Assembly (NCBI GenBank): GCA_028285755.1
Contig: JANQOQ010000006.1
Span: 558,001 to 622,000 of the forward strand
From: Puniceicoccaceae bacterium
Lineage (GTDB): Bacteria > Verrucomicrobiota > Verrucomicrobiia > Opitutales > JAFGAQ01
DNA length: 64,000 nt
Direction of reading: 5' to 3'
Under the pieces are notes generated by a model that worked only from the letters and a program-made list of their open reading frames with translations, did no database searches and had not been told where the DNA came from. Positions 13,500-63,260 of this stretch are shown here, one piece after another (position 1 is the stretch's first letter; each line of letters opens with the position of its first letter). A program made the position numbers and the translations under genes.

Positions 13500-14447
13500 A
13501 TGCAGTTTAAGAAAATATATATTACAGGCCACCGGGGCATGGTGGGCTCTGCAATCAAGCGTACGATTGAAGCTCAATTTCCCAGCATTGAAGTCATCAC
13601 CCGTACCCGCAGTGAAGTCAACCTGACCAATCAGCAAGAGACGGATGCTTTTTTGGCCAATGAAAAGCCGGACTGTATTATCAATGCAGCCGCCAAAGTC
13701 GGTGGTATCCACGCCAATAGCACTTACCCGGCTGAATTTTTGCAGGAGAACCTTGCGATTAACTTAAACCTTGTTCACTCAGCCTACGCTCATGGAGTTA
13801 CCCGTTTCCTTAATTTAGGCAGCTCCTGTATTTACCCTAAGATGGCCGAGCAACCCATTCGCGAGGATTCTCTTCTGACCGGGCCACTTGAGATTACCAA
13901 TGAAGCCTATGCGCTCGCTAAAATTGCAGGCCTGAAGCTTTGCCAATACTATCGTAAGCAATATGGAGTGCTTTACCACTCAGCGATGCCCTCCAATCTT
14001 TATGGACCCGGAGACAATTACCATAAGGAAAACTCGCACGTACTACCGGCCCTGATCCGTCGATTTCATGAAGCGAAAGAAAATGGAAATCCCACGGTTA
14101 CCATCTGGGGCACCGGAAAGCCGAGGCGTGAATTCCTGCATGTAGATGACCTCGCAGATGGCGTTATCCACCTTCTGAATCTCGAGAATCCGCCGGAATG
14201 GGTCAATCTGGGCTCCGGCAGTGATATAACAATACTCGAGCTTGCGCTCATGGTAAAGGAAACGATCGGATTCGCTGGAGAGCTCGTTCATGACACTTCA
14301 AAACCCGACGGCACGCCCCGTAAGCTCATGGATAACTCCATCATACAAGGCACAGGCTGGAGCGCGAAAATTGATTTAAAGACTGGCATCGAGTCCGCAT
14401 ATCAGGACTTCCTGAATCGTCTGGCAGACGGTAGTGTGCGTTTGTAG
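13500..14447 (+). CDS. fcl: GDP-L-fucose synthase
   Basis: 315 aa SDR, typical length. NADP-binding [10 protein letters not shown] near residue 11, [14 protein letters not shown] near 107, and catalytic [15 protein letters not shown] (Y and K of YxxxK) near 137. It epimerises and reduces GDP-4-keto-6-deoxymannose to GDP-L-fucose for surface glycans. The partner GDP-mannose dehydratase (gmd) is not in this window. Downstream, after a 71-base gap, is pseB, so this is the start of a sugar-nucleotide block. The alternative, a related GDP-sugar reductase-epimerase, cannot be excluded from sequence alone. Confidence 0.9.
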
Positions 14448-14518: not shown

Positions 14519-15508
14519 ATGTTAGATAACAAAGTGGTATTAGTAACGGGCGGCACAGGCTCGTTTGGGCAAAATATGGTGAATACCATTTTGCACCAAT
14601 ACAAGCCTCGTAAATTAATCGTATTTAGTCGGGACGAACTTAAGCAGTATGAAATGCGGCAAACATTTAGCCCGGAGGTGTATCCCTGCATGCGATACTT
14701 TATTGGCGATGTCCGGGACCGGGATCGATTACAAAGGGCTTTTTATGGGGTTGATGTCATCATCCACGCGGCCGCGCTAAAACAGGTAGATACCTCCGAG
14801 TACAATCCGTTTGAGGTTATTAAGACAAATATCCTTGGTGCTTCGAACATCATTGATGCGGCGATCGATGCCGGCGTAGACAAGGTGATCGCGCTCTCCA
14901 GCGACAAAGCAGCCAACCCCATCAATCTCTACGGAGCCACCAAACTGTGTGCGGACAAACTATTTATTGCGGCCAATACCTACTCCGCCAAGAAGCGGAC
15001 ACGCTTTAGTATCGTACGCTATGGCAATGTGATCGGTAGCCGCGGCAGCGTCGTTCCCCTCTTTATTAAACAAAAAGAAACGGGCACACTGACCATCACC
15101 CACCCGGATATGACACGATTCTGGATCACCCTGGATCAGGCAGTAGCCTTTGTATTGCAGTGTTTGGGGCATTCCAAGGGTGGAGAAGTCTTTATTCCAA
15201 AGTTACCCAGTATGAAAATCCTGGATCTCGCCACTGCAATTGCGCCTGAGAGCGAAATTAAGACGATTGGTGTGCGTCCCGGCGAAAAGATGCATGAAGT
15301 GATGATCCCCTCGGATGAAGCGCTTCAGGCGCGTGAGTATTCAGATCGGTACACCATCTATCCAGCGTTTCAGTATTGGGGCCATAACGAGAATGGCGGC
15401 ACCCAAACCGGAAAGCCCCTGCCGGAAAATTTCCAGTACAGCAGCGATAATAATGATAATTGGTTAACGGTAGGAGATCTCGGCAAGCTTATTGCTGATA
15501 TACGCTAA
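14519..15508 (+). CDS. pseB: UDP-N-acetylglucosamine 4,6-dehydratase (inverting), pseudaminic acid pathway
   Basis: 329 aa. TGGTGSFG (residues 10-17) binds NADP; SSDKAANPINLYGATK carries the D-K pair and the catalytic Tyr/Lys characteristic of PseB/FlaA1. Family knowledge: it removes water from UDP-GlcNAc and inverts C5, giving the 4-keto-6-deoxy-L-arabino sugar, the first step to pseudaminic acid. pseI follows 2.2 kb downstream behind two unrelated genes, and pseC and pseG are 36 kb further on. Shorter than the membrane-bound nucleoside-diphosphate epimerase/dehydratases of the CapD type, and without their membrane helices. Confidence 0.93.
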   Translation: MLDNKVVLVTGGTGSFGQNMVNTILHQYKPRKLIVFSRDELKQYEMRQTFSPEVYPCMRYFIGDVRDRDRLQRAFYGVDVIIHAAALKQVDTSEYNPFEVIKTNILGASNIIDAAIDAGVDKVIALSSDKAANPINLYGATKLCADKLFIAANTYSAKKRTRFSIVRYGNVIGSRGSVVPLFIKQKETGTLTITHPDMTRFWITLDQAVAFVLQCLGHSKGGEVFIPKLPSMKILDLATAIAPESEIKTIGVRPGEKMHEVMIPSDEALQAREYSDRYTIYPAFQYWGHNENGGTQTGKPLPENFQYSSDNNDNWLTVGDLGKLIADIR

Positions 15509-17745: not shown

Positions 17746-18753
17746 ATGATCATTGCAGAATTATCCGCAAATCATGGACAAAACAAGGATCAGGCGATCG
17801 CCCTTATTGAGGCGGCCCATCATGCGGGCGCAGATGCGGTCAAAGTGCAAACCTACACTGCGGATACACTGACACTCGATAGCGATGCGGATGATTTTCA
17901 GATCAAAGATCAGGCTCTGTGGAAGGGGCAAACCTTGTATCAACTGTATGAAAAGGCCTATACTCCCTGGGAGTGGCAACCTGAGCTCAAAGATCTGGCG
18001 GAGTCATTGGGTATGCAATTTATTGCATCGGTTTTCGATGATAGCTCTGTGGATTTCTGGGAAACCAATGAGCTTAAGATTTACAAGATAGCATCCGCGG
18101 AAATCGTACATATCACGCTACTGCAAAAGATTGCAAAGACCGGTAAGCGTGTGATCGTTTCCACAGGGATGGCGACGCTTGGAGAAATTGATGAGGCCGT
18201 TGATACCTTAAAAACAACAAACCCGGATATCGACCTTACCCTGCTAAAATGCTCCAGTGCCTACCCTGCCCCACCTGAGAGCCTCAACCTCAAAGGGATT
18301 CAAACGCTTGCGGATCGCTTTCAATGCCCGGTCGGCCTCTCGGATCACACATTGAACCCTGAAACCGCTATTTGTTCAGTAGGACTCGGTGCCACTGTTT
18401 TTGAAAAGCACCTCAAATTGGATAATACGGAAACCCTGGATGACGCTTTTTCGTTGACCCCCGATGAATTTAAAAGCTGGGCAGAGTCCATACACATTGC
18501 TCAAAAAACGCTCGGAAGCCCAGAGCTCAAACCCAGCTCACACGAGGCCTCCACACTCCCCTTTCGCCGTTCACTCTATGTCGTGAAGCCTATTAATAAG
18601 GGAGAAACTTTCACCCGGGAAAATGTACGCTCCATTCGCCCCGCTTATGGCCTACATCCCCGCGAATTGGATAAACTCATTGGGAAAAAAGCGAAAATAT
18701 CGCTTGAAACCGGAACTCCCATGAAAAGCGAATATATTGAGGAAAGTCAATAA
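17746..18753 (+). CDS. pseI: Pseudaminic acid synthase
   Basis: 335 aa. The opening IAELSANHGQNKDQA and the segment LYQLYEKAYTPWEWQPEL are the features that separate PseI from sialic acid synthase NeuB and legionaminic synthase. TIM-barrel residues include VKVQTYTADT and SGLSDHT-like PVGLSDHTLNP; a C-terminal SAF domain spans about 275-335 (FRRSLYVVKPINKGE). It condenses 2,4-diacetamido-2,4,6-trideoxy-L-altrose with phosphoenolpyruvate to give pseudaminic acid. Last gene of this block; its end overlaps the convergent M20 gene by 7 bases. Confidence 0.93.
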   Translation: MIIAELSANHGQNKDQAIALIEAAHHAGADAVKVQTYTADTLTLDSDADDFQIKDQALWKGQTLYQLYEKAYTPWEWQPELKDLAESLGMQFIASVFDDSSVDFWETNELKIYKIASAEIVHITLLQKIAKTGKRVIVSTGMATLGEIDEAVDTLKTTNPDIDLTLLKCSSAYPAPPESLNLKGIQTLADRFQCPVGLSDHTLNPETAICSVGLGATVFEKHLKLDNTETLDDAFSLTPDEFKSWAESIHIAQKTLGSPELKPSSHEASTLPFRRSLYVVKPINKGETFTRENVRSIRPAYGLHPRELDKLIGKKAKISLETGTPMKSEYIEESQ

Positions 18754-50494: not shown

Positions 50495-51196
50495 ATGGAC
50501 ACTTTTTGCAGGCTGACAGTATGGATACGTCAATCCGCTCATCTAGGATTGATCGCTGCCCTAAGCGGAATCTTCGCGGGCTGCTCCACAACCGTTGATT
50601 TTGTGAAAACAGCAGTACTCCCGGAACCCCCTACCCCCGCAACTCAACCCACGAATTTTTACATCGAACCCTCCGAAGTAGACACCATCCGCCGCATTGC
50701 CCTGATGCCCGTCTATTCACCCAATACCAACCATCAAACCCAGGCGGTGCTGGATCAGGCTTTCTTAAACAAACTTTCGGAAACTCAGCTTTTTGAGGTA
50801 GTGATGATCACGCGTGAAGACCTCGCAAGGCGCTTCAGTGCTCGTGCCTTTAACTCTGCTTCGCCTATCCCGGACACTCTTTTTAACTACGTCGAAGAGG
50901 CAACCTATGCCGACGCGGTTGTATTTTTTGACGTTACCAGCTATAGCCCCTATAAACCGGTAAAGCTGGGTATTCGCTCCAAAATGATGCGCATGGAAGA
51001 TCGCAAAATCATCTGGGCAATCGATCAGAGTTTTGACACGGGAGACCAGCGCGTGGCAGAGGAAGCAATTGATTATCAATCCGATATTCGGGCCAACCCG
51101 ACACCCACCCGTCAACCCGATAGAATACTCATTAGCCCCTCGGTTTTTATCTATTTTGCAGCCGAAAGAAGTGTACAAACTTTAAAAACCGGCTAA
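50495..51196 (+). CDS. Lipoprotein of a CsgG/LpoB-like fold
   Basis: 233 aa. Signal sequence with lipobox ending FAGC, lipidated Cys30, preceded by the hydrophobic run LGLIAALSGIFAG. After a Pro/Thr-rich spacer the core starts IRRIALMPVYSPNTNHQTQA, LSETQLFEVVMITREDL and ADAVVFFDVTSYSPYKPVKL, the alternating pattern seen in CsgG/LpoB/TolB-N-like lipoproteins. That group includes flagellar assembly and envelope factors. It lies upstream of the FlgM-like gene, so a flagellar link is possible but unproved. Confidence 0.65.
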   Translation: MDTFCRLTVWIRQSAHLGLIAALSGIFAGCSTTVDFVKTAVLPEPPTPATQPTNFYIEPSEVDTIRRIALMPVYSPNTNHQTQAVLDQAFLNKLSETQLFEVVMITREDLARRFSARAFNSASPIPDTLFNYVEEATYADAVVFFDVTSYSPYKPVKLGIRSKMMRMEDRKIIWAIDQSFDTGDQRVAEEAIDYQSDIRANPTPTRQPDRILISPSVFIYFAAERSVQTLKTG

Positions 51197-51231: not shown

Positions 51232-51259
51232 TTAAGTTCCCCCAAGCATCGACCGATAA
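51232..51259 (+). promoter_or_regulatory. Sigma-28 (FliA)-type promoter of the FlgM-like gene
   Basis: TTAAGTTC (51232-51239) followed by ACCGATAA (51252-51259). The -10 matches 7 of 8 bases of the FliA consensus GCCGATAA, and the -35 resembles TAAAGTTT. Measured from TAAG at 51233 the gap is 15 bases, the usual value. It lies 60 bases before the flgM-like ATG. Confidence 0.6.
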
Positions 51260-51318
51260 CAAGGCATACACTGATTTTACCTGCCACATATAATTAGCCA
51301 AATTACTCTTTTTTGATT

Positions 51319-51600
51319 ATGAACATAGATGGAATTGATCCTTCACAAATAACCGGCCTTCAATCGCCTATAAGCGATGCGAAGTCCACACCACCGATTA
51401 AGCCTCAAACCGAGGATTCTGCAAAGGTCGAGACAGAAACGCTCGAGAAACTCGTACAGAATGTAAAGGATTTACCCGAAAACCGTCCCGATGTTGTCGC
51501 CCGTGGAAAGGAACTCCTAAACGATCCCAATTACCCATCGGCAAACGTTGAAGATCAAGTAGCCAAGATTCTGCTGGGTCTGGAAGAAGAAGCTTTCTAA
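51319..51600 (+). CDS. flgM: FlgM-like anti-sigma-28 factor
   Basis: 93 aa from the ATG at 51319; a TTG two codons earlier is possible. N-terminus is low in structure (NIDGIDPSQITGLQSPISD), as in FlgM. The C-terminal half has KLVQNVKDLPENRPDVVARG and LLNDPNYPSANVEDQVAKIL, the two short helices flanking a -x-NYPS- turn that bind sigma-28 in FlgM. It would hold FliA inactive until the flagellar hook is complete. The sigma-28-type promoter just upstream supports this call. No flagellar genes are otherwise visible. Confidence 0.68.
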   Translation: MNIDGIDPSQITGLQSPISDAKSTPPIKPQTEDSAKVETETLEKLVQNVKDLPENRPDVVARGKELLNDPNYPSANVEDQVAKILLGLEEEAF

Positions 51601-51627
51601 GAATACTTTTAAATTAATCTTTCAGGG

Positions 51628-51664
51628 AAACCGGGTTTGCAAACGCACACCCGGTTTTCTTTTT
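51628..51664 (+). terminator. Rho-independent terminator after the FlgM-like gene
   Basis: Perfect 9-bp stem AAACCGGGT (51628-51636) / ACCCGGTTT (51649-51657), 12-base loop, then TCTTTTTTTT. It should insulate pseC from the sigma-28 promoter unless read through. Confidence 0.87.
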
Positions 51665-51700
51665 ATAGACGCGTCGCATTTGATAGTATTATAAAAAACC

Positions 51701-52882
51701 ATGCGCCCGATTCCCTACAGCCGCCAAAATATTACCGAATCCGACATTGCGGCGGTGAATGAAGCCTTACGCAGTGATATCATAACCCGCGGAGAGAAGG
51801 TAACAGAGTTTGAAACGGAAGTCGCGCAATACTGTGAGGCAAAATACGCGATTGCAGTAAGCAATGGCACGGCAGCGCTTCATTTGGCGGCACTTGCAAT
51901 GGAAATGAATGAGAGCTCCCAAGGATATACCTCAGCCATATCCTTCGTGGCCTCGGCCAACGCATTTCGTTATTGCGGCAGTCCAGTTCAGTTCTGTGAT
52001 GTGGATTCACACTCAGCCCTGATCGACAAGGCTTCATTAAAGGACTCGCTGGAATCCGCTCGAGCAGGTGATGCTTTGATAACCGTATCATTTGCCGGTG
52101 ACGCACAAAGTCAGGTAGAGTATCATGAAATTGCGGCAACCAAAGGCGTCAAGATCATCGAGGATGCTGCCCATAGCCTGGGTGCAACTTATGAAGCGAA
52201 TGGCAAAACCTACAAAAGTGCCTCCTGCACGCACTCCGATCTGGCCGCCCTCAGCTTCCACCCCGTTAAGCATATATGCTCGGGTGAAGGCGGAATGGTA
52301 ACGACCCATGATTCCGACTTGGCAGATCGCCTTCGGACTTTACGCAACCACGGTATCCGCCGCGCTCAGGATCAGCTTAGTATTGAAGATCATTTGAAAG
52401 GCCCATGGCTCTATCAGCAAGAAACGCTGGGCCTGAATTATTGGATGACTGATTTTCAGGCAGCACTCGGACTAATGCAGCTTAAGCGTATCGATTCTAT
52501 CTTAGCCCAGCGCAGAAAAATCGCACATAATTACTGCTCACAGCTCTCAGGGCAACCATTTGCCGATCACTTCGATATTACACCCTACTCGCCTCATCAC
52601 GCCTATCATCTATACATAATCCATTGGAGAAACCCCGAAAACCGCTCTGCAGCATACACTTTCCTTAAGGAACATGGCATCCACACTCAGGTGCATTATT
52701 TACCCATCTATCATCAACCCTATTATCAAGACCTGGCAACCACGGCTCCTCTACAAGGGGCGGAGCAATATTATGCCGGTTGCCTGTCACTCCCCATTTA
52801 CCCGGGCCTGGAGGAATCCCAGCAAGCCTATGTAGTCGATACGCTCAGGACCTTCTGCACTCAAGTGGCAAGATCTGATTGA
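51701..52882 (+). CDS. pseC: UDP-4-amino-4,6-dideoxy-N-acetyl-beta-L-altrosamine transaminase
   Basis: 393 aa DegT-family PLP enzyme. MRPIPYSRQNITESDIAAVN at the start is the PseC pattern; SNGTAALHLA binds the PLP phosphate, EDAAHSLGATY holds the PLP-ring Asp, and Lys190 in SFHPVKHICSGEGGM forms the Schiff base. It transfers an amino group from glutamate to the keto sugar made by PseB, the second step of pseudaminic acid synthesis. pseG starts 1 base after its stop. Distant from pseB and pseI (33-36 kb). Confidence 0.92.
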   Translation: MRPIPYSRQNITESDIAAVNEALRSDIITRGEKVTEFETEVAQYCEAKYAIAVSNGTAALHLAALAMEMNESSQGYTSAISFVASANAFRYCGSPVQFCDVDSHSALIDKASLKDSLESARAGDALITVSFAGDAQSQVEYHEIAATKGVKIIEDAAHSLGATYEANGKTYKSASCTHSDLAALSFHPVKHICSGEGGMVTTHDSDLADRLRTLRNHGIRRAQDQLSIEDHLKGPWLYQQETLGLNYWMTDFQAALGLMQLKRIDSILAQRRKIAHNYCSQLSGQPFADHFDITPYSPHHAYHLYIIHWRNPENRSAAYTFLKEHGIHTQVHYLPIYHQPYYQDLATTAPLQGAEQYYAGCLSLPIYPGLEESQQAYVVDTLRTFCTQVARSD

Positions 52883-52883
52883 T

Positions 52884-53849
52884 ATGTCCGGGCACTCGAC
52901 CATTTGTTTTTGTCTGGATGCCGGGGCAAGCCTTGGCTGGGGGCACGCGATGCGCTGCCATACGCTTGCACAGGAGTTTCAGAAGGCGGGTATACGCACC
53001 GAGCTCATAACCACCTCTCAGGATTTCGAATGGTCGACCCATTTTCCATTGTTCGAAAATCCAAGCATTATCAATGATTGGGGCCAAAGCAGCCTTCAGC
53101 CAAATCGCATAGGCATCCTCGATCATAAAGAACTAGTAGCGGATTATAGATTCCTGGAACGCTGGTTAACCTGTTTCGAAAAAGCCATCGTTATCGATGA
53201 CGAAATCAACCCCATACCTGAAAGTCTCGATCTGGTCATCAACCCGAACGTATATGCAAAGGAAGGAAACTACCCCGCCAACGCTTCTCTGACCGGGCCA
53301 GAATACACGATACTGCGGGCAGGATTTTCAACTCCCCAAACCATTCCGGAACTAGCAGGAATACCCGCTCCTTACTTACCCATCATTCTCGGAGGAAATG
53401 ATGCCCATAATCTGCAGGATACACTCATTGAATATTTAGCACCTCATACCCGGGAGCTCCCCCCAGTTATTATTGTAAATGCGAAAAAGGAATCATCTAT
53501 CCCCTCAATTCACGGCATCTGTCGCAGTCTCGATGCATCGGAGCTGGCATATCTATTTAAGCATTCCGCATTTGCAATTACATCACTCGGCGGCACTGCT
53601 AATGAGCTCGCTTATTGTGAAACCCCATTCATCGGAATTTGCCTAAACCAAAACCAACGCAATCTCTCGGATTTTGCAGCTGAATATTGGCAGATGCCTG
53701 CGATTGATATTCAGGACCTCAATGAAACTTCTCTGATAAATGCTACCCGGACTATATCCGATTCGGCATATCCCAAAGCCCCTCAATCTATGCCTCATTT
53801 GGGCGGAAAAACGAACATCGTACGGCAAATACAAAAGATTCTAAAATAG
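52884..53849 (+). CDS. pseG: UDP-2,4-diacetamido-2,4,6-trideoxy-beta-L-altropyranose hydrolase
   Basis: 321 aa, GT-B fold like MurG. GWGHAMRCHTLA near residue 19 contains the catalytic His of the GxGHxxR box; VIDDEINP, LVINPNVYAK, GPEYTILRAGF and FAITSLGGTANELAYCETPF follow. It removes UDP to give the free sugar used by PseI. pseH, which N-acetylates between PseC and PseG, is not present here. Ends 125 bases before nusA. Confidence 0.9.
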   Translation: MSGHSTICFCLDAGASLGWGHAMRCHTLAQEFQKAGIRTELITTSQDFEWSTHFPLFENPSIINDWGQSSLQPNRIGILDHKELVADYRFLERWLTCFEKAIVIDDEINPIPESLDLVINPNVYAKEGNYPANASLTGPEYTILRAGFSTPQTIPELAGIPAPYLPIILGGNDAHNLQDTLIEYLAPHTRELPPVIIVNAKKESSIPSIHGICRSLDASELAYLFKHSAFAITSLGGTANELAYCETPFIGICLNQNQRNLSDFAAEYWQMPAIDIQDLNETSLINATRTISDSAYPKAPQSMPHLGGKTNIVRQIQKILK

Positions 53850-62792: not shown

Positions 62793-63260
62793 CTACTCTT
62801 CTGGAGAGCCATGCCCGTGATGTTCGCGCATAGGGTGCGGGCGCCCCTCTTCCCGACTATGCTTAATGCGTATTACCCGGCGCTCACGCTTCTGTAAATA
62901 CTCCTGATACTTGATTTTTTGCTCATCATTCAGATGACTGCTAACGGCTTCATTCGCCTCAGCAATGACATCGCGCATCTGATCAGATACAGACCCATGG
63001 ATACGTGAAAATGCCTCAGAGGCTTGCTTCATCTCTTCAAAAATAAGCTGCTTTTGTTCCTCGGTGAGATCCAGCTCCATCGACAACCGTCTAACGACAA
63101 ACTCCGCCTTGCGGGGCCCGCCGCTGAGCATGCGGGGCTCCATCGGGTGATGAATGGGGGTATTCTTCTTGATAGCTAATAAAGTTCCACCAACCCCAAC
63201 CGATAAGCCAAAAAGCCAAACTCCCACTAATATCAGGCCTGCAAACCACTTTTTCTTCAT
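62793..63260 (-). CDS. Spy/CpxP-like periplasmic stress protein, membrane-anchored or exported
   Basis: 155 aa from ATG 63260, which overlaps the upstream gene's stop (ATGA); an ATG two codons earlier is possible. A hydrophobic N-terminus (WFAGLILVGVWLFGLSVGVG) is followed by a long amphipathic helical region with the pattern LDLTEEQKQLIFEEMKQASE and LNDEQKIKYQEYLQKRERR. These LTxxQ-like repeats are typical of Spy/CpxP/heavy-metal-resistance proteins. The His-rich end (HPMREHHGHGSPEE) could bind metal. It is the last gene of the sigma-factor operon. Confidence 0.72.
   Translation of the reverse strand: MKKKWFAGLILVGVWLFGLSVGVGGTLLAIKKNTPIHHPMEPRMLSGGPRKAEFVVRRLSMELDLTEEQKQLIFEEMKQASEAFSRIHGSVSDQMRDVIAEANEAVSSHLNDEQKIKYQEYLQKRERRVIRIKHSREEGRPHPMREHHGHGSPEE

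Follow-up and report, generated by a model that had tools for sequence, protein, structure and literature searches.

A 64-kb stretch of bacterial DNA, hereafter the window (G000:C15:558001-622000), carries the anti-sigma-28 factor gene flgM directly followed by two genes of the pseudaminic acid pathway, pseC and pseG. We consider it probable that this is a rearranged late-flagellar locus, in which pseC and pseG, together with pseB and pseI, supply a sugar for flagellin and flgM is isolated by a terminator. The link between flgM and the pse genes is real and most likely inherited. Gene identities (PseC and PseG below their cut-offs), promoter position, terminator, recurring neighbourhood and the PseC and PseG clades were computed directly. 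The window genome (4.25 Mb, 97% complete) has Opitutales MAGs as its closest named relatives; MAG contigs may be chimeric. All coordinates of a preliminary description of the locus were confirmed on re-reading the sequence and its open reading frames (ORFs).

Identity of FlgM and its promoter

The gene at 51319-51600 (+ strand) encodes a protein of 93 residues. Searched against Pfam and NCBIfam at E<=10, it gave zero matches, including PF04316 and TIGR03824, and as a single sequence it fails the PF04316 gathering score. The preliminary description had called the protein FlgM-like and had named the lack of a PF04316 match as a reason to give up the call; the protein's own match is indeed absent, but its identity holds through its relatives. 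Homologues occur in all five genomes of its family, with 53-63% identity outside its own genome. A profile built from these five sequences found matches in 69 of the 384 genomes of the class Verrucomicrobiia at E<=0.01. Among 38 aligned FlgM-like relatives, 12 have PF04316 matches at E<=1 (best 3.2e-5) and eight have TIGR03824 matches (best 0.0022). An independent PF04316 search of the same 384 genomes matched 17 at E<=0.01, seven of them over the cut-off; the ORF was the one found by the window-family profile in 13 of the 17 and in six of the seven. The FlgM family described by the new profile is mostly missed by PF04316 as it now stands (17 vs 69 of 384 genomes at this E-value).

Aligned by hhalign, 13 Opitutales-type members and eight PF04316-matched ones agree at 96.5% (E 9.2e-10), and in the PDB the FlgM-like profile has its top match, at E 0.021, in a negative regulator of flagellin synthesis. 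Through its relatives, the protein is homologous to accepted FlgM. Because they match PF04316 at the same ORFs and the profile-profile comparison agrees, we read the miss of the window protein as a limit of sensitivity. FlgM has a disordered N-terminal half and a helical C-terminal half; the AlphaFold2 (AF2) model, of low confidence (pLDDT 68.9, pTM 0.32), suggests a disordered N-half and then helices at 39-50, 57-67 and 75-85. Judged by sequence comparison, the protein is a divergent FlgM.

The genome around it is flagellar, as had been proposed for checking. It encodes FHIPEP/FlhA (850 bits), two flagellins, an FlgL-like protein and FliA (C15:504789, 241 bits, over the cut-off of 189.6), the last about 104 kb from flgM on the same contig; ORFs around flhA include fliP, fliQ, fliR, flhB, flhF, motA and motB, named by eye. 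Across the class, the FlgM-like gene tracks FlhA (scored as present at about 695 bits or more), found in 60 of the 69 carriers against 87 of all 384 genomes (Fisher p 5.7e-39, uncorrected for kinship). That the protein is instead some other small regulator or export substrate of the flagellum would accord with the absence of a match to PF04316 or TIGR03824 for the protein itself and with its low-confidence model, but we hold it very improbable: the same ORFs of its relatives independently match PF04316, the hhalign agreement is high, and the layout and the position of the sigma-28 promoter are common to the window and the relatives.

Sigma-28 promoters have boxes of the type TAAA-N15-GCCGATAA. 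Upstream of flgM, at 51232-51259 (+ strand), lie TTAAGTTC (51232-51239) and ACCGATAA (51252-51259); read as TAAG-N15-ACCGATAA, the promoter spans 51233-51259. On its own the string is weak evidence: allowing up to one mismatch, the two-box pattern has four matches in the window against 1.1 expected, and five of 100 shuffles reach four. Its conserved position across genomes strengthens the call and supports the original promoter claim. A -35-like TAAG or TAAA with ACCGATAA or GCCGATAA precedes flgM in all five family genomes, and among 38 flgM upstream regions of the class a match at p<=0.05 was obtained in 22 (at p<=0.01 in 16), mostly 45-80 nt 5' of the start codon across Verrucomicrobiia. 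A sigma-28-like match at 63180-63206 of the window is perfect, better than that of flgM, and falls within an opposite-strand ORF; it is probably chance or antisense. A genome-wide scan counted 807 places with CCGATAA and 574 with the pattern reversed; it was set aside as evidence.

We also used a weight matrix of 14 rows, hand-picked from the 38 upstream regions and made up of flgM promoters of other families. It has 28 sites scoring at least 12 in 156 kb of the genome's own sequence, some within genes, and claims for single sites were therefore dropped. A search for the same promoter at the flagellin genes had been proposed: the first has a matrix site (none of 300 shuffles was as good), subject to that reservation, while the second lacks a clear one. 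No clear matrix site precedes pseC, pseB or pseI either.

Directly 5' of flgM, at 50495-51196 (+ strand), lies a lipoprotein gene, which occupies this place on the same strand in 47 of the 51 flgM loci examined (with L036 and L069 apparently one and the same contig). Its AF2 model (pLDDT 88) has a PelC/GNA1162/FlgT-type fold by Foldseek and VIA-align (VIA Z of 13.1 to PelC and 11.1 to FlgT), making the lipoprotein a candidate part of a flagellar outer-membrane ring.

Pse genes, their clades and their neighbours

About 100 nt beyond flgM, on the same strand, follow pseC (51701-52882, 393 aa), an aminotransferase, and pseG (52884-53849, 321 aa), a UDP-sugar hydrolase. Their identities, proposed at the outset, hold with both below the NCBIfam cut-offs: PseC scores 414.4 bits with TIGR03588, narrowly under 423.5 and by far its best-scoring family, and PseG 107.4 bits with TIGR03590, well under 153.55 and the only family matched. 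The pseudaminic acid pathway comprises six genes, pseB, C, H, G, I and F. We searched the window genome for pseB, pseC, pseG and pseI, and all four were found: pseB (14519-15508, + strand; TIGR03589, 506.1 bits, cut-off 407.75) and pseI (17746-18753, + strand; TIGR03586, 410.4 bits, cut-off 340.25) lie 33-37 kb from pseC. A GDP-L-fucose synthase gene (13500-14447; 466.4 bits, just below the cut-off of 500) adjoins pseB.

The rows of the trees were taken from the collected loci for their similarity to the proteins of the window, a limited sampling, and flagellum-linked labels were set by hand. In the PseC tree (14 rows), a 100/99 branch sets the six flagellum-linked sequences, that of the window included, apart from the rest; in the PseG tree (17 rows), the eight labelled as such are set apart likewise, also at 100/99. 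These labels include L143 and L144, the PseG of G001 and G002, on short contigs with no recognised flagellar gene, and L147, whose flgM lies on another contig; conversely, L031, the pseB of G001, is flagellum-linked and stands unlabelled. A 98/96 branch of the PseB tree unites the rows of the window and G001 with three linked ones, and in the PseI tree the branch joining the window to flagellum-linked sequences has only 88/85 and is not decisive. By phylogeny, then, the window PseC and PseG belong, at full support, with flagellum-linked sequences of other Opitutales.

The order of the genes recurs as well. Four of the 51 loci other than the window (L033, L038, L039 and L071, MAGs of other genera) have flgM followed by pseC and pseG on the same strand, with pseI and pseB adjacent beyond pseG on the other strand. 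Pfam identifies fliD and FliS among the flanking genes of L033, and FliS in L071; the small gene before pseC has a weak FlgN or FliT match, below cut-off. At this place L034 and L037 hold no more than short pseB or pseI frames, whereas the genes of relatives are complete, which suggests decay. Other Pse cassettes accompany the flagellar locus elsewhere. G270 has TPR-GT41, PseB, PseC, PseF, a PseG fusion and PseI, all over cut-off, some 10-22 kb 5' of flgM, with two flagellins, fliD and the lipoprotein in between and FliS after flgM; in G250, PseF, PseC, PseB and TPR-GT41 lie 5' of fliD-lipoprotein-flgM. Most of the 51 neighbourhoods have no pse gene near flgM. In the class, PseG occurs with the FlgM-like gene to a modest degree (17/41 vs 69/384, Fisher p 1.6e-4), and the two lie within 20 kb in four of the 17 genomes with both, the window's included (p 1.8e-5, under uniform placement).

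Within the window family, G001 and G002 have flgM followed by fliP-fliQ-fliR-flhB-flhA, with pseB divergent upstream in G001, and G003 has lipoprotein-flgM-nusA with no pseC or pseG between. The latter order, the separate pseB-pseC-pseG cassettes that hold pseG away from flgM in G003 and G004, and the terminator that isolates flgM would all suit an accidental adjacency, with pseC and pseG serving a surface polysaccharide and merely lying between flgM and nusA. We regard this as unlikely: the window PseC belongs with the flagellum-linked copies and in a separate group from those of G003 and G004 (37% identity), the gene order recurs in the four MAGs of other genera, and G250 and G270 have different Pse cassettes close to this flagellar locus. 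The suggested link to flagellin glycosylation is upheld by this recurrence, by the clades and by those cassettes, and the sugar probably decorates the flagellum.

A gene for a predicted TPR-GT41 protein (L022:8826-10217, counted from the first ATG, though an upstream GTG would lengthen it; PF13844, 142 bits) is followed by a flagellin gene, giving the genome a candidate flagellin glycosyltransferase close to its presumed target. It stands in a row of glycosyltransferase-type genes, followed by the flagellin and a DegT aminotransferase (L022:6132-12614, or G000:C15:1006131-1012613).

A terminator between flgM and pseC

The strong terminator described earlier between flgM and pseC proved real. 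The hairpin at about 51624-51661 (+ strand) folds at -23.6 kcal/mol (z -6.95), and none of 200 shuffles was as good; a simple terminator scan did not have it among its matches. Over 20 loci, a hairpin of -17 kcal/mol or lower followed by T stands 3' of flgM in all five window-family genomes and in none of the 15 others. With this strong terminator after flgM throughout the family, simple co-transcription of pseC and pseG with flgM would no longer hold.

An FlgM-controlled switch on the two genes had been envisaged. Such control could come from sigma-28 transcripts reading through into pseC and pseG, so that FlgM would hold them off until the hook is complete. The shared strand and the short gap between flgM and pseC are compatible with this, as are loci of the L033 type, which pack flgM-fliS-fliT-pseC-pseG tightly and in which we found no strong terminator. 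We nevertheless judge it quite unlikely in view of the terminator with its equivalents across the family, and of the 101 nt before pseC, where no sigma-28-like site was found (p 0.81). With the flgM-nusA order of G003, which lacks pseC and pseG, the same two results leave sigma-28/FlgM switching of pseC in the window genome not supported.

FliS was not found at E<=0.001 in any of the five window-family genomes, and an intact ancestral operon in the family was ruled out for that reason. Flagellar export genes are nevertheless present in G000, G001 and G002, and FlhA in G004.

Proposed pathway and known systems

In the rearranged late-flagellar locus that we favour, FliA (sigma-28) would transcribe flgM from the promoter at 51232-51259, and FlgM would keep FliA bound until completion of the hook-basal body; its presumed export would then release FliA, and flagellin would be made. 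PseC and PseG, with PseB and PseI, would produce pseudaminic acid or a close relative, which the TPR-GT41 enzyme, of FlmG-like layout, may attach to flagellin in the cytoplasm. The adjacency of flgM and pseCG would descend from an Opitutales operon fliD-lipoprotein-flgM-fliS-fliT-pseC-pseG, rearrangement having presumably run in that direction, and in the window family flgM would have gained or retained its strong terminator.

A broader reading is possible but tentative: a late-flagellar lipoprotein-flgM unit of Verrucomicrobiia, with a sigma-28 promoter at flgM and the lipoprotein as part of an outer-membrane ring, where a sigma-28 operon of Opitutales would carry flagellin-specific Pse genes and hook completion would trigger the synthesis of both flagellin and sugar.

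Parallels exist in other bacteria, as far as the portions of the reports consulted go. Flagellin glycosylation islands of Geobacillus likewise hold pse genes within a late-flagellar locus with flgM, fliD, fliS and fliT (PMC5109656). That island, in a Gram-positive, is flanked by flaA2 and flaG, whereas in the window pseC and pseG come directly after flgM, a terminator separates flgM from pseC, and pseB and pseI are tens of kb away. In Caulobacter, FlmG, a TPR + GT-B enzyme, puts pseudaminic acid on flagellins (PMC7591256), and the window genome similarly combines a TPR + GT-B glycosyltransferase with PseB- and PseC-type enzymes; its TPR-GT41 beside flagellin resembles FlmG in layout, and the parts of that report consulted contain no link to FlgM or sigma-28. 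Shewanella oneidensis resembles the window in having a sigma-28 site at flgM and pse genes in flagellin glycosylation: pseB-pseC is predicted to be co-transcribed and PseB is required for the modification, with pseudaminic acid doubted as the actual sugar (PMC3120886). It differs in phylum and in its FlgM, which is part of flgNM.

Our literature search, covering sources in part, found no report of pseudaminic-acid flagellin glycosylation for Verrucomicrobiota. On our best reading, this is a flagellin-glycosylation locus of a known kind, for whose occurrence in Verrucomicrobiota we found no earlier report. The order of its genes is evidence that flagellin is glycosylated with pseudaminic acid in this phylum, and the operon of some genomes and the terminator of others provide contrasting natural arrangements for testing whether the glycan supply is timed with flagellin.
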